Shown one piece after another: positions 2,920-35,406 of a DNA stretch of 35,688 nt. The notes below the pieces were generated by a model. That model was not told the origin of the DNA, ran no database searches, and worked only from the letters and a program-made list of their open reading frames with translations. Each line of letters opens with the position of its first letter. The stretch's first letter is position 1. The DNA lies in the NCBI GenBank assembly GCA_030605745.1, contig JAUWHT010000153.1, forward strand, positions 1-35,688, read 5' to 3'. This DNA comes from Pirellulales bacterium. GTDB lineage: Bacteria; Planctomycetota; Planctomycetia; Pirellulales; Thermoguttaceae. Both the position numbers and the translations under genes were made by a program.

Positions 2920-2952
2920 CTTTGTCCTCTTCTGTTTTATGCTGTTAGTTCC

Positions 2953-3036
2953 GTTTAGCCGCCGGGCTTGCCCGGCGCGTTGGTGGGTATCAATGCGCTC
3001 GAGCGCAAACGCGCCGGGCAAGCCCGGCGGCTAAAC
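2953..3036. repeat. family A palindrome
   Basis: gtttagccgccgggcttgcccggcgcgttggtgggtatcaatgcgctcgagcgcaaacgcgccgggcaagcccggcggctaaac. Confidence 0.95.
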
Positions 3037-3964
3037 GAATTTGCTTCACGATATAATTCTCGACGAAATAATCCAATCCACCCCAGCGGCCCGCTGCGGT
3101 CACGGCAACCAGGAACAGGGCAACCATCTCGACGAAGTCCTTGTTGACCAGCAGGGCGTGTCCGGCCACTGGTGGGGCGGGCGGATAGATGGTCGGCCAG
3201 GCCGGCTGAGTGAGAACCACGAAGAACATGAACACTCCCCCACCCAGCGCCGCCGGCCGTGTGAATAACCCCAATATCAGGCACAAGCCGATCGCCGTCA
3301 GCCCGTAAGTGACCGCGAAGTTGATATAGTGGGCCATCGTCCAGGGCACCGGCAGCGGTCCCATTTCCTTCTGTTCGGCAGAGAGCACATTCCAGAGCGC
3401 CTGTTGGTAATCCTCGCCCATGGCATCCAGTTCGGTCAGCCAGACGCCGACCTCGCCGCGGAGCTTCTGCATCTCGTTCCAGGCACGCTTTTTATGGAAT
3501 GCCGCACCATTGTTGCCGGCCGCCTTCCGGGCCTCGAAGTGGTCCAAGGCCCCAAAGTAGGCGGCTATATCTTCCTGGTTCTCCAGTAGGTAATACCTGG
3601 CTGAATCCCTATAGCGTTGGCAGATTTTGTCGATCTCGTGCTTCTGCTCGTCGTTAAGCCTATATTTCCTTACGACCTTTTCTTTCAGATTGTTCCACGC
3701 GTCGACGTATTGCGAGCCCAGGATCACTTCGCCGCTGGCGAGTTTTTCGATTTTCAGCCGCTGGTGCCCGTCGACGTCGGGCAGCATCGCGTAGAAGATC
3801 CAAGCCGCCGGGCCCTTCGCCTGAAGCAGGAAACCTTCGGCCGAGAACTCCGGATGCGCGATCTTCCACACTCCCTCGTAGAGAAAGTGAAAACCCAGGC
3901 TCAGCCGCAGGATCACCATCATCACTATGGTAGCCACGCCGATTTGGAATTTTTTCTCAAACAC
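2990..3964 (-). CDS. DoxX family membrane protein; last ~15 residues encoded by a repeat
   Basis: MFEKKFQIGVATIVMMVILRLSLGFHFLYEGVWKI and C-terminal TM helices typical of DoxX; tail RLAAGLARRVCARAH* is translated from the 2953-3036 palindrome. Confidence 0.8.
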   Translation of the reverse strand: MFEKKFQIGVATIVMMVILRLSLGFHFLYEGVWKIAHPEFSAEGFLLQAKGPAAWIFYAMLPDVDGHQRLKIEKLASGEVILGSQYVDAWNNLKEKVVRKYRLNDEQKHEIDKICQRYRDSARYYLLENQEDIAAYFGALDHFEARKAAGNNGAAFHKKRAWNEMQKLRGEVGVWLTELDAMGEDYQQALWNVLSAEQKEMGPLPVPWTMAHYINFAVTYGLTAIGLCLILGLFTRPAALGGGVFMFFVVLTQPAWPTIYPPAPPVAGHALLVNKDFVEMVALFLVAVTAAGRWGGLDYFVENYIVKQIRLAAGLARRVCARAH

Positions 3965-4019
3965 CGTCGCATATCTCCCATAGTATATTCTAGTCGCTTG
4001 TTACCTTTTCAACTACTAC

Positions 4020-4081
4020 TAATAGCCGGGACGCAACGCGTCGCGGGCTGGCTTCCGCGACGCGTTGCGTCCCGGCTATTA
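4020..4081. repeat. family C palindrome (AATAGCC...GGCTATT)
   Basis: taatagccgggacgcaacgcgtcgcggg-ctggcttc-cgcgacgcgttgcgtcccggctatta; near-perfect dyad, each arm with mini-hairpin GACGC-AAC-GCGTC. Confidence 0.93.
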
Positions 4082-4216
4082 TCAAACGATCAATCCAACA
4101 TTGACAGGGCACTGGTGGTCCGTCAATATCACCGACAAACGATTCTTGCCTTGAATCTGTCACCCCGCCGCAGAGGGGAGTGGCCGCCGAGTCCCAAGTT
4201 GGTCACAATCATCCGC

Positions 4217-5200
4217 ATGAAAATCGTCCTCTGCTATCCGGTCCAGAAACGCCACTGCCGGCAGATCGCCGCCGCCGTGCCCGGGGCCGAACTGGTCGAT
4301 GCCGGGCAGGAACGAATTGCCGAGGAACTCCTCGGCGCCGACATCTTCTGCGGCCACGCCAAGGTGCCGGTCGATTGGCCGGGGGTTGTCCGGCGAGGGC
4401 GACTCAAATGGATCCAGTCATCGGCGGCTGGGATGGACCATTGCCTGGTCCCGGCGGTGATCGACTCTCAGATCGTGGTGACCAGCGCCTCGGGCGTGCT
4501 GGCCGACCAGGTGGCCGAGCACACGATTGCGCTGGTGACTGGGTGGTGCCGGAGTCTGCCGACGTTTTTTCGCGCGCAGCAGAAGAAGGAGTTCATCCGC
4601 CGGCCTACCCGCGACTTGACCCGCAGCACGGTCGGCATTGTCGGCTTCGGCGGGGTAGGGCGGCGGCTGGCGGAGTTGCTCAGCGGCTTTCATGCCCGAA
4701 TCCTGGCCACCGACATGTTCCCGGTCGAGAAGCCCGACTACGTCGAAGCCCTCTGGCCGGCCGATCGACTGGACGACCTGTTGCCACTGGTCGATATCCT
4801 GGTCCTGTCGCTGCCGCTTAACGAAATGACCCGCGGGATGATCGATGCTGCGGCGCTGGCAAAGATGAAGCCCGACGGACTGTTGGTCAACGTTGCACGC
4901 GGGCCGCTGGTGGTCGAAGCCGATCTGGTTGCGGCGCTCCGGAGCAGGCAGCTAGCCGGCGCCGTGATGGACGTGACCGCCCCGGAACCTCTGCCGCCGA
5001 GCAGCCTGCTCTGGGAGTTGCCCGGCGTGATCATCACGCCTCACGTGGCCGGCCAGAGCGCCCGGCGGATTGACAACATGACGGAGCTATTTTGTCGCAA
5101 CCTGCGGCGTTGGCAGGCAGGCGAGCCGTTAATCAATTACCTGGCCGACAAGCGACTCGGTTTTCCGATCCGCGGCGCCGGAACCCCGATCTGGGGATAG
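4217..5200 (+). CDS. D-2-hydroxyacid dehydrogenase (NAD-binding)
   Basis: MKIVLCYPVQKRHCRQIAAAVPG start; VGIVGFGGVGRRLAELL Rossmann; NVARGPLVVEADLVAALRSRQLAGAVMDVTAPEPLPPSSLLWELPGVIITPHVAG. N-terminal extension in the ORF track (from 3617) is not coding. Confidence 0.92.
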   Translation: MKIVLCYPVQKRHCRQIAAAVPGAELVDAGQERIAEELLGADIFCGHAKVPVDWPGVVRRGRLKWIQSSAAGMDHCLVPAVIDSQIVVTSASGVLADQVAEHTIALVTGWCRSLPTFFRAQQKKEFIRRPTRDLTRSTVGIVGFGGVGRRLAELLSGFHARILATDMFPVEKPDYVEALWPADRLDDLLPLVDILVLSLPLNEMTRGMIDAAALAKMKPDGLLVNVARGPLVVEADLVAALRSRQLAGAVMDVTAPEPLPPSSLLWELPGVIITPHVAGQSARRIDNMTELFCRNLRRWQAGEPLINYLADKRLGFPIRGAGTPIWG

Positions 5201-5203
5201 GCC

Positions 5204-5350
5204 GTTTAGCCGCCGGGCTTGCCCCAATACCGTTGAATTAAGGGCAGAATTGGCAGCAACACAGTGGCACCGGCGTCTCGCCGGTGCCACTGTGTTTCCC
5301 TTAATATTACCACTAATTCAACGGTATTGGGGCAAGCCCGGCGGCTAAAC
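5204..5350. repeat. nested palindrome: family A tips, unrelated middle arms, inner CACAGTGGCACCGGCG-TCT-CGCCGGTGCCACTGTG hairpin
   Basis: 37-nt arm 5204-5240 is the exact reverse complement of 5314-5350; inner 16-bp stem 5260-5275/5279-5294. Confidence 0.96.
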
Positions 5351-5456
5351 AAACCTCGGAAAATATCGATATCGGTCTGGACGGACAGGGCCGCCGGCGG
5401 GTAAGATACACGTGGTATCATCCCATACCTATACATACCGAAAATGAGGCTAACAA

Positions 5457-6578
5457 ATGTCCACTACGACATTTTTGGAAGGTAGTGCCACCCGAACGTG
5501 GGGAGGCCATCTAACCGCCCGCTGTCCGGATGAACTGCTCGAACGCTACCGGACGATCCTCGAAGACCAGCGACTGAGCTGGACCGAGCACCACCGGCTG
5601 ATCCGCTTGTTGGGCTCGGGGGGGCAGGGGGTTGTTTATCTGAGCGAGCGGCGTGGCACCGACGAGTTTACCTTGCCGGTGGCCATTAAGGTCTTTTCGC
5701 CCGCACGCTACGAAAACGAGCGGGCCTACGACGAGGCCATGGGCCGGATGGCCCAGGTCGCCGCCCACGTGGCACAAATCCAGCAGGATAACCTGCTGGA
5801 CGTCCACAACTGGGTCGACCGCAACCGCATCCGACTGATGGAGATGGAATGGGTCGACGGCTTCGATTTGTCCCGATTGCTCACGCGAAAAATGCTCGAG
5901 ATGGTTCACCATCGCGTGAGCAATCGGCGCTGGAAGTACATCAACCAAGTGATCGTGACCGCCGGTCCGATGCAGCCGCGGGTGAAGCCGGGGATTGCGA
6001 TCGCGATCGTCCGCGATTGCCTGGCCGCGCTGGCGGCGCTGCATCGCGACGGGATCGTCCACGGCGATCTGAAGCCGTCGAACATCATGCTCAAACGGAC
6101 CGGCAATGCGAAGATCGTCGACCTCGGCTCGGCCTTCGAGTTGGACCACACCCCCGCGCAGCGAACCTGTACGCCGACCTACGCCGCGCCGGAAGTGCTC
6201 GAAGGCGGCGAGAGTTCGCCGCGGAGCGACCTGGCCAGCCTGGGATATGTGCTAATCGAGATGCTCTCGGGCTCGCCGGCGTTTGCCGGGCTGACCAGCT
6301 TTCGTGACTTGCTGGAGGCCAAGCGGTTCCTGGCCCAGCGGCTGCCGCGGATACTGCCCGACGAGGTCGTCTGCAACGAGCTGCTAATGAGCTTCTGCCG
6401 CGGCCTGGTCGCGCCCGATCCGATGCGCCGCTTCCCCAGCGCCGAAGCGGCCGACCTGGTCAAAGAAGGCGCCGCCAGCTTCCACCGCCAACTAATCAAG
6501 AGCGATCTGGCTAGCGAGTACGAAAACGAAATCCGGCTGTGGCTGGCAGAGTTGAAAGAGTTGGAAGAGCTGGATTAG
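5457..6578 (+). CDS. serine/threonine protein kinase
   Basis: LGSGGQGVVYL P-loop, VAIKVF, IVHGDLKPSNIML catalytic loop (HGD, non-RD), IVDLGSA (DLG), TPTYAAPEVLEGG. Confidence 0.93.
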   Translation: MSTTTFLEGSATRTWGGHLTARCPDELLERYRTILEDQRLSWTEHHRLIRLLGSGGQGVVYLSERRGTDEFTLPVAIKVFSPARYENERAYDEAMGRMAQVAAHVAQIQQDNLLDVHNWVDRNRIRLMEMEWVDGFDLSRLLTRKMLEMVHHRVSNRRWKYINQVIVTAGPMQPRVKPGIAIAIVRDCLAALAALHRDGIVHGDLKPSNIMLKRTGNAKIVDLGSAFELDHTPAQRTCTPTYAAPEVLEGGESSPRSDLASLGYVLIEMLSGSPAFAGLTSFRDLLEAKRFLAQRLPRILPDEVVCNELLMSFCRGLVAPDPMRRFPSAEAADLVKEGAASFHRQLIKSDLASEYENEIRLWLAELKELEELD

Positions 6579-14687: not shown

Positions 14688-14800
14688 TTGGACGTAACGA
14701 CGGGTGCCATGCTCACGCTTGTCGTGGGCAAGGCACTATGCTAAAATTAAGGTCGTGTAACGCTCCAGCCGTGGACAAATACAGGCCGCCGTGCCGGCGG

Positions 14801-14894
14801 CCGCTAAACGGTCGATTCTCATGCTTAGCAGGCCGCTAAACGGTCGATTCTCATGTTTAGCAGGTCGCTAAACGGTCGATTCTTATGTTTAGCA
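14801..14894. repeat. three tandem 32-bp hairpin units GCTAAAC-N13-GTTTAGC
   Basis: ccgctaaacggtcgattctcatgcttagcagg / ccgctaaacggtcgattctcatgtttagcagg / tcgctaaacggtcgattcttatgtttagca; flanked by ccgccgtgccggcgg and ccgccggtacggcgg. Confidence 0.93.
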
Positions 14895-19088: not shown

Positions 19089-19104
19089 GTTTAACTGATC
19101 TACC

Positions 19105-19188
19105 GTTTAGCCGCCGGGCTTGCCCGGCGCGTTGGCTAGTATCAATGTGCTCCAGCGCAAACGCGCCGGGCAAGCCCGGCGGCTAAAC
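19105..19188. repeat. family A palindrome between pstB and phoU
   Basis: gtttagccgccgggcttgcccggcgcgttggctagtatcaatgtgctccagcgcaaacgcgccgggcaagcccggcggctaaac. Confidence 0.95.
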
Positions 19189-19229
19189 GACTATTGGAAA
19201 CGCCAACAACCCCTGAAGGAGCTATTGGA

Positions 19230-33156: not shown

Positions 33157-35406
33157 TCATTTCCGCAGCGGGGCCGGGCTCGGCTGCTCGGCGGTACGGA
33201 TCGGTGCGGTTTGTCCTTCCGCGGCTGGTCCGTCCTGGTAGAAGCGGGTGGTTTCCTCGCTGACCAGCCGGGTTCCCAGCGGCTTGCAGTGGACCTCGGC
33301 GCGGAAGATGTGATTTCCGGCCGTCTCGGCACGCGCGGAGATTTTCAGGATCAGGTCGCCGCCGGCAGGCACCGACGGAATGGGGCTGAAGACCACCTGT
33401 CCCGGGCCGATTTTGTGTCGGCCGCCCTCGACGGCAGTCGGTTCGATGCCGTTGGAGAAGTAAGCGAGCACCTCGACGTTCTCGGCACTCTTGGTGCCGC
33501 GGTTGCGGATTCGCAACTCGTAGGTCGCCTCTTCGCCCACCGGCACCGGCCCCGTGGGGTCCTTCACGTCAAGCACCAGGTCGGCGATGGCTTCCACTTC
33601 GGTGGTTATGCCTGCCGTGGCGGTCAAGTCGCCGTCGGCGGTTGAGACGATTTCCATGCGGCTGGGGCCGGGCAGGCCCAGGCTGCACTTGAGCGTGAAG
33701 CTCTGTTCGCCGCCCGGATCGAGCTTTTCCAGTGCCCAGAGCACTCTGGTCCCGTTGGCCTCGAGTTGGCTGCCGTCGATGCTGGAGAGGTACTTTGCGC
33801 CGGCCGGGATGTTGACCGACATTTTGAGGTTTTCGGCCGGCGCAGTTCCCGGATTTCGCACGCGAATCCGGTAGCCGGCCACCGCGCCCACATATTGGAC
33901 GGCCGGTCCCTGCACATCCACTTGCAAGGCGGGCCGGCGGACCAGTACCTGCTCGGCCAACTCCGCGCGGGCGCCCCCGTCTCCGCGAGCTTCGACCTTG
34001 ATCATCAGGTTTCCGACCTGCCGGGCGGTCAATTCCACCTCGATGGCTTTCTGCTCACCAGCGGCGATCGTGCCCAGGTCGTGCGAAACCGGCTGATTCC
34101 CATCTGCCCCCATCGGCAGCAAACGGATGATCACATTCTCGGCTTCACCGTTGCCCGTATTGGCAAGCTTCAACCGGTAGATTTCCTTCCTGCCGTAGAG
34201 GACCTCGCGGGGCCCTTCGAGGGTCATTGCGAGCTTGGGCTGCTGGACTTCGATCATCGTCTTGGAGCCAACCGGCTTGGATTCCCAGCGGACTGCCAGA
34301 TCGAAGGGGCGGTTCTCGCGGGGCACGATCGTCAGGACCAATTTCTCCCGGCCCTTTGCTTCGAGGTGTCCGATCTTCCACACAAGCGGTCCAGCCGGCT
34401 CGCCGGCGGCCGCCCGGTGCGCTGCACCCTTGCTGGCTTCGGCGGCCGATACGTCGGCCCACTCGGGAAGATCGACAAAAACCACGACGTCTTCAGCCCG
34501 CAGGTCACCCGCATTGCGAATGGTCACCTCGTAGGACGACTTCTTGCCTACTGAAATCCGCCGCGGCCCGACAGTCTCGACGCTCAGCACCGGTCCTTTG
34601 TTGGTAAACAGCACGGCGGCGTCCGGCTCTGTCCCGATATCGGCGGTCAACCTTTTGGCCGGTTTCCGGCTTGATTCGGCCGCCGGAGAGACAACGGTTT
34701 TCTTCCGGACCGCCGGTGTAGTACGCTGCACGATCACCGGTCGAGTGCTCGGCGCGGCGTGAGTTGCACGTGTAGGCGTCATATTCGGGCGTTTCTCCGC
34801 CATCCGAACCGGCTGATCTACAACAGGTGGATCGGTGGCGGCGTCCGGTTTCGGATTGACCTTCGGACTCGGCTTGCTCGGCGAGCTTTCGTCGAACGCC
34901 GACCGCCGAAGCGCCGCCAGACGTTCGTGCAGGGGACGCGTGGCGGGAGAATTAGTCGCATCCTGTTGGGGTGGCAGTTCAACTGCCACACCAACACCGC
35001 GTTTGGACAAGGTTTTCGAATCGCTCTTTGGCCTCTGTTGGGGTGGCAGTTCAACTGCCACACCAACACCGCGCTTCGAGTTCGACGGGGCCGCCATAAT
35101 GCTGCCGGCACGTGGCCTGCTCCCATTGCGGTGCGGATAGAACTTCCGCGTTGCAGACCGAGGGTCAGGTCGACGCATCTTATTGCTGTTCCCCTCGCCG
35201 GGAAGAATCCCATGGAGAATCGAACGACCGAAATCGCCTACCTGCTGACCGAGGTCACCCACCTGCTCGACCAGCGTCTTCGCATACTTCGGAGGGGTAG
35301 GCATCGCTCGGTTAGGACCCGGCGATGGTCCCTGGGCAAAGACCGTAGAGGAAATCCCCCAAACCCCAAAGGCCAAAACGGCCGCGGTAAATCTCTTTGC
35401 TAGCAT
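33157..35406 (-). CDS. secreted protein with multiple DUF11/CARDB-like repeats
   Basis: Signal peptide MLAKRFTAAVLAFGVWGISSTVFAQ; repeated patterns SYEVTIRNAGDLRAEDVVVFVDLPEW, YRLKLANTGNGEAENVIIRLLP, YRIRVRNPGTAPAENLKMSVNIP, YELRIRNRGTKSAENVEVLAYF. Confidence 0.88.
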   Translation of the reverse strand: MLAKRFTAAVLAFGVWGISSTVFAQGPSPGPNRAMPTPPKYAKTLVEQVGDLGQQVGDFGRSILHGILPGEGNSNKMRRPDPRSATRKFYPHRNGSRPRAGSIMAAPSNSKRGVGVAVELPPQQRPKSDSKTLSKRGVGVAVELPPQQDATNSPATRPLHERLAALRRSAFDESSPSKPSPKVNPKPDAATDPPVVDQPVRMAEKRPNMTPTRATHAAPSTRPVIVQRTTPAVRKKTVVSPAAESSRKPAKRLTADIGTEPDAAVLFTNKGPVLSVETVGPRRISVGKKSSYEVTIRNAGDLRAEDVVVFVDLPEWADVSAAEASKGAAHRAAAGEPAGPLVWKIGHLEAKGREKLVLTIVPRENRPFDLAVRWESKPVGSKTMIEVQQPKLAMTLEGPREVLYGRKEIYRLKLANTGNGEAENVIIRLLPMGADGNQPVSHDLGTIAAGEQKAIEVELTARQVGNLMIKVEARGDGGARAELAEQVLVRRPALQVDVQGPAVQYVGAVAGYRIRVRNPGTAPAENLKMSVNIPAGAKYLSSIDGSQLEANGTRVLWALEKLDPGGEQSFTLKCSLGLPGPSRMEIVSTADGDLTATAGITTEVEAIADLVLDVKDPTGPVPVGEEATYELRIRNRGTKSAENVEVLAYFSNGIEPTAVEGGRHKIGPGQVVFSPIPSVPAGGDLILKISARAETAGNHIFRAEVHCKPLGTRLVSEETTRFYQDGPAAEGQTAPIRTAEQPSPAPLRK
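34963..35073. repeat. two exact 39-nt copies of CTGTTGGGGTGGCAGTTCAACTGCCACACCAACACCGCG inside CDS
   Basis: 34963-35001 and 35035-35073, 72 nt apart; each encodes RGVGVAVELPPQQ on the - strand. Confidence 0.95.

Follow-up and report, generated by a model that had tools for sequence, protein, structure and literature searches.

The nested palindrome at positions 5204-5350 of the window (the whole stretch of 35,688 nucleotides that was analysed) was very probably formed by an insertion and two slippage deletions. An IS4-type MITE that carried a REPIN of one repeat family (family D) would have inserted into the tip of a REP of another family (family A), and both REPINs would then have collapsed. 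The window is contig C42 of the source genome, a 3.47-Mb draft in 460 contigs that is about 90% complete, and the named records that share copies of the window's repeats are mostly those of Pirellulales and other planctomycetes. The window also contains, at 14799-14894, three tandem 32-bp copies of GGCCGCTAAACGGTCGATTCTCATGCTTAGCA that are 91-97% alike.

A first-pass annotation of this DNA had described a nest with perfectly matched 37-nt arms and, in its centre, a 16-bp hairpin with a TCT loop, and all of this holds. Positions 5204-5240 are the exact reverse complement of 5314-5350; the pairing ends there, and none of it extends directly outward or inward. The stem of the central hairpin (5260-5294) is made of CACAGTGGCACCGGCG (5260-5275) and CGCCGGTGCCACTGTG (5279-5294) around the loop at 5276-5278, and it grows to 18 bp if the adjacent AA/TT are included. 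The segments between the arms and this hairpin, 5241-5259 and 5295-5313, are overall not complementary, and the two 72-nt halves of the nest taken together show a complementarity of 86%. Folded as single-stranded DNA, the nest reaches -75 kcal/mol as compared with -22 for shuffles (z = -18), so it is not a product of chance. It lies between two genes, starting 3 bp past the stop codon of a dehydrogenase and ending about 100 bp ahead of a kinase. The nesting is real. As had been claimed, the outermost part belongs to family A, with 21 instead of 20 nt on each side (5204-5224 and 5330-5350). We read the region as follows:

3617-5200, + strand: D-2-hydroxyacid dehydrogenase, the upstream gene (Pfam PF02826/PF00389)
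5204-5224, + strand: family A REP, left half (GTTTAGCCGCCGGGCTTGCCC), the putative target element (shared with other family A places)
5215-5224, + strand: putative left target-site copy, GGGCTTGCCC (10-bp duplications flank the unit at other loci)
5225-5329, + strand: MITE-like insert B-D-B' of 105 bp (aligned with 11 full-length copies, which two genomes contain)
5225-5240, + strand: left terminal inverted repeat CAATACCGTTGAATTA, family B, 16 nt
5241-5259, + strand: subterminal segment AGGGCAGAATTGGCAGCAA, specific to the left end (alignment with full-length copies)
5260-5294, + strand: apparently collapsed family D REPIN, in which the two inverted D REPs and their spacer are reduced to a single 16-bp hairpin
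5279-5286, + strand: CGCCGGTG, the repeat at the junction of the putative inner deletion
5295-5313, + strand: subterminal segment TTTCCCTTAATATTACCAC, specific to the right end (alignment with full-length copies)
5314-5329, - strand: right terminal inverted repeat, family B, 16 nt, a perfect match to the left one
5330-5339, + strand: putative right target-site copy, GGGCAAGCCC (differs from the left copy in the central TT/AA)
5330-5350, - strand: family A, right half (GGGCAAGCCCGGCGGCTAAAC), at the outer end of the right REP
5457-6578, + strand: Ser/Thr protein kinase, the downstream gene (Pfam PF00069)

The middle layer is the key to the nest. We sought CAATACCGTTGAATTA, with or without a preceding CCC, in one genome per species and in the source genome, and furthermore in 397 genomes of the class, six of which contain exact matches. 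The matches form inverted pairs that span 105-230 bp and enclose various centres. Matches to the 19-mer (that is, CAATACCGTTGAATTA with CCC) in Acinetobacter and Betaproteobacteria were single and had no partner repeat, and we took them to be chance. The B units number 24, from seven genomes, and 18 of them are flanked by a target duplication of 10-11 bp in which no more than one position differs. Note that this count tolerates a one-base shift of the ends. When left and right flanks of different loci without an A tip were paired as a control, none of the 156 combinations reached the same level. Two pairs, L056 and L150, show no duplication. On the other hand, several duplications are perfect and non-palindromic, for example GGGCTAGACT (L074), GGATTTAGCG (L143), ACATTAGGGC (L145) and GGCTAAACTC (L151), as well as that of L154, and because of these cases there is little doubt that B units duplicate their target on insertion. 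This comparison delimits the unit, its ends and its target duplications, and identifies CAATACCGTTGAATTA as the terminal inverted repeat, at both ends, of a MITE-like element that is mobile.

The first-pass annotation had noticed that the usual inner arm of family A is replaced on both sides, which is correct, and had argued that a simple insertion cannot achieve this. However, the 16-nt segments in question form the inverted ends of a transposable unit, and an insertion does explain most of the symmetry, since the inverted repeats come with the element and its target is palindromic. What had been proposed instead was that template switching or hairpin-primed repair had made one arm a copy of the other, which would render the inner arms symmetric, or that new palindromes assemble on existing tips. 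The arms are indeed perfect over 37 nt, as copying would leave them. Yet the B segments belong, as its inverted ends, to an independent element that is flanked by target duplications of 10 bp, and the segments between B and D are asymmetric, each matching its own end of the intact copies; copying through this subterminal region would have erased such an end-specific asymmetry. Both proposals are contradicted by these observations, and we consider arm copying highly improbable.

Which transposase moves the B unit? Members of the IS4 subgroup have ends of the form -AATR--------WTW and a target duplication of 10-13 bp (De Palmenaer et al. 2008, PMC2266710). CAATACCGTTGAATTA agrees with the terminal pattern of the subgroup (-AATR--------WTW----) at all seven defined positions, and the length of the B-unit duplications fits as well. 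Since no autonomous element was found, it is from the ends and the duplication length that we infer an IS4-type transposase as the mover. The search for an autonomous copy, which should encode a DDE transposase with the YREK motif, covered the DDE_Tnp_1 loci of 14 incomplete genomes (at least one probably counted twice), and none of the DDE_Tnp_1 loci listed among the matches has a CAATACCGTTGAATTA end pair. Looking for CAATACCGTTGAATTA pairs that have duplications and a spacing of up to 3.5 kb did not yield an autonomous copy either. L095, considered as the start of a transposase beside a B end, was rejected, as its open frame is by eye unlike a transposase.

The unit B-D-B' recurs as one element, with four other copies in the source genome and nine loci in CSMAG_3026, both ends being intact at seven of the latter. 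Aligning the 11 full-length copies from the two genomes, we see that they measure 149-161 bp, contain a family D REPIN and are about 77-97% identical to one another; against this full-length form with D, the 105-bp unit of the window reads as an internally deleted copy. Each of the five B-D-B' units of the source genome occupies the GGGC-TT-GCCC tip of a family A REP. Of the targets in CSMAG_3026, several are the family A tip and others are similar GC-rich 10-mers, so that comparison of the loci also shows a target preference. Other B ends enclose or abut family E repeats (CATAAAGCCGCGACC), namely at L030/L090 (C444), L033 (C301), L063, L031 and L032, and in C45/C364 they surround yet another centre; B units thus carry different passengers.

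The outer layer, family A, is a REPIN family, as it consists of inverted REPs with a spacer in many copies: GTTTAGCCGCCGGGC-TT-GCCCGGCGCG, the spacer and the inverse. It is found in at least about 30 other places in the source genome, many of them pairs about 64 bp apart, and uninterrupted elements lie in the window at 1021-1128, 2952-3037 and 19104-19189. Most copies start with GTTTAG and some with GTGTAG, as compared with the GTAG/CGTC REP superfamilies, whose repeats have GTAG or CGTC at one end. A palindrome resembling GGGGTGGCAGTTCAACTGCCAC occurs twice near 35 kb in the window (34963-35007 and 35035-35079) and once more at 1067-1111, within the spacer of the element at 1021-1128, where it is perhaps another nested insertion.

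The inner layer is a REPIN family too, with inverted REPs and a spacer at several places: AGTGGCACCGGCG-TCT-CGCCGGTG, the spacer and the inverse, which form the centre of the long B-D-B' copies. Full D doublets are present in C34, C78, C99, C255 and the seven intact CSMAG_3026 copies, and the copy in the window is down to one hairpin. D pairs without B stand alone as REPINs in the relative G015. In C410, D REPs flank on both sides the gene of a REP-associated tyrosine transposase, whose protein scores 87.8 bits against NF047646 (curated NCBIfam cut-off: 80), which makes it the RAYT of family D. Related repeats border other such genes, A-like ones at C209 and E-like ones at C254, and both proteins score below the cut-off. 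At C209, the putative transposase gene is bordered by A-related GTTTAGCCGGC...GCCGGCTAAAC repeats with a different stem and its protein reaches 48 bits; the assignment of a transposase to family A is tentative. There are six Y1-type transposase loci in the source genome (L050-L055, in C23, C419, C166, C254, C209 and C410), and several have a distinct family of palindromic repeats on either side. The spacer between the D REPs has one orientation in L026 (C99), L027 (C78) and L058 and the opposite one in L028 (C34), L029 (C255) and L061, as though an inversion had taken place between the inverted D repeats that enclose it.

As B units and D REPINs each exist separately, we rejected the reading of the 147 bp as a single family. 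The possibility that they form one conserved element survives in part: the middle and inner layers do move together elsewhere, and the outer A is a separate recipient. One could nevertheless regard the whole A-B-D-B'-A' as one transposon with 37-bp ends that is moved by the family A REP transposase. The TT/AA layout (see below) is common to the window, C99 and C255, and A-like REPs border the gene at C209, both of which would fit. However, the duplications lie at the boundary of B, inside A, the family A tip motif is absent from 13 of the 24 B pairs, and the interiors of the window copy, C99 and C255 are not clearly closer to one another than to other copies. No duplication at the A ends is visible by eye, which is by itself indecisive because REP-type movement leaves none. 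In view of these points we find a composite transposon improbable.

To follow the route to the window copy we rely on its sister loci. Searching the source genome with the 176-bp nest region yielded four more loci, C34, C78, C99 and C255, with the same layers and a longer centre. At C34 (L028) a family A REPIN is still whole, and the unit sits in the right one of its two REPs, flanked by an exact GGGCAAGCCC duplication. Removing from it the 53 bp between the CGCCGGTG repeats gives a 105-bp unit that is 96% identical to that of the window. Removing another 53 bp, from the GCCC of the left REP tip to the GCCC before the unit, gives exactly the left outer arm of the window. By comparison, C34 keeps the intermediate stage. 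Each REP is itself palindromic, so both 53-bp deletions fall between short direct repeats, and, with each REP nearly palindromic, those of a REPIN are quasi-direct repeats as well as inverted ones.

The nest accordingly very probably arose in the following steps. A non-autonomous IS4-type element (terminal inverted repeat CAATACCGTTGAATTA, 10-bp duplication), already with a family D REPIN in its middle, would have inserted in the palindromic GGGC-TT-GCCC tip of a family A REP just 3' of the dehydrogenase gene. Replication slippage would then have deleted DNA from REP tip to REP tip, such that one symmetric hairpin remains. In the outer REPIN this would leave GTTTAG...GCCC and GGGC...CTAAAC flanking the insert, and in the inner one the single 16-bp hairpin. 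The deletions and their junctions point to slippage as the cause, and the order of the events is likewise a reconstruction; a role of REP transposases in the deletions is conceivable, although the REPIN excisions reported in P. fluorescens end differently, that is, asymmetrically.

The tips of the outer arms need a separate explanation. C78 (L027) has TT on both sides and a perfect direct duplication between A outer ends. In the window copy, C99 (L026) and C255 (L029), by contrast, TT on one side faces AA on the opposite side, which is not a direct duplication and which the outer deletion would produce. Among the full-length interiors, that of C99 is closest to C78 (93%) and that of C255 to L061 of CSMAG_3026 and to C34. 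It counts against the insertion and slippage reading that TT/AA copies need an extra deletion or a two-base change, and no undeleted form of the window's own nest was seen; the same goes for the lack of a transposase gene with CAATACCGTTGAATTA ends in the search above, the two B pairs without a duplication and the tentative link of family A to a transposase. An inversion of the insert was dismissed as the cause of TT/AA, since on paper an inversion across the outer arms changes both tips together. A possible but less likely explanation is that the unit entered an already collapsed A hairpin and that palindrome-directed repair, with template switching from arm to arm, later turned the TT of one copy into AA. 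Collapsed family A hairpins (GTTTAGCCGCCGGGC-TT-GCCCGGCGGCTAAAC) do exist at C295:101-130 and C72:1911-1940, and C78 has exactly the TT/TT form that is predicted. Yet the same two-base change would be needed in the window, C99 and C255, whereas a deletion from the C34 form yields TT/AA in one step. Our confidences in the two explanations overlap, as the only difference between them is the time at which the outer A lost its second half.

Finally, we compared the orthologous junction in relatives. Kinase orthologues that are 81-85% identical lie beside the same dehydrogenase in four genomes. In CSMAG_3026 the junction contains two family A REPs without B and D, that is, without the insert, which supports that A came first and the insert later in the lineage of the window. 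Note that these REPs are solo, not a REPIN, and need not be the same insertion as that of the window. The junctions of G003, G015 and G045 contain other palindromes, neither A nor B. Comparing the intergenic region 5201-5456 with L158, L159, L160 and L161, we see a different palindrome in each of the five genomes, and the gap between the two genes therefore looks like a hot spot for palindromes. Taking together the C34 step, the deletions and the relative that lacks the insert, the symmetric "core replacement" is best read as an insertion followed by slippage deletion.

This would be a simple route to long, near-perfect palindromes of several levels in bacterial intergenic DNA: an element with inverted repeats inserts in a palindromic tip and the REPs then slip, and copying from arm to arm is no longer needed to explain them. 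Furthermore, an IS4-like MITE is added to the elements for which REPs serve as landing sites, and a REPIN is seen travelling within a MITE across species. It is possible, though rather unlikely, that B-D-B' is a hybrid element with two unrelated movers, an IS4-type DDE transposase acting at its ends and a REP-associated tyrosine transposase on the inner D REPIN; it would spread with other REPINs as its landing pads, and tip-to-tip collapse would give the long perfect palindromes.

The components of the nest are all of known kinds: REPINs, IS4-type MITEs and insertion into REPs. REPINs and their REP-associated tyrosine transposases have been described by Bertels and Rainey (2011, PMC3116915), and the GTAG/CGTC REPs elsewhere (PMC3733652). 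Families A and D resemble REPINs in that short near-palindromic repeats form inverted pairs around a spacer and that the copies number from several to many; family D also resembles them in bordering a RAYT gene on both sides. They differ in that the D REPIN rides inside a MITE and the A REPIN is the target of that MITE, and the deletions run from tip to tip, whereas the excisions in P. fluorescens are asymmetric as reported. With the IS4 subgroup the B unit shares the terminal pattern, at every defined position, and the 10-bp duplications. On the other hand, only units of 105-230 bp without a transposase gene are seen here, so the B unit is at most a MITE of this subgroup. Several insertion sequences are known to insert in REPs, namely ISRm22 (IS4 family), ISPa11, ISPpu9 and ISPpu10, and one element of the IS4 family has all of its copies in REPs (Tobes and Pareja 2006, PMC1525189). 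The B unit also prefers REP palindromes; unlike these elements, it is a MITE, its target is not obligatory (other 10-mers are used as well) and it carries another REPIN.
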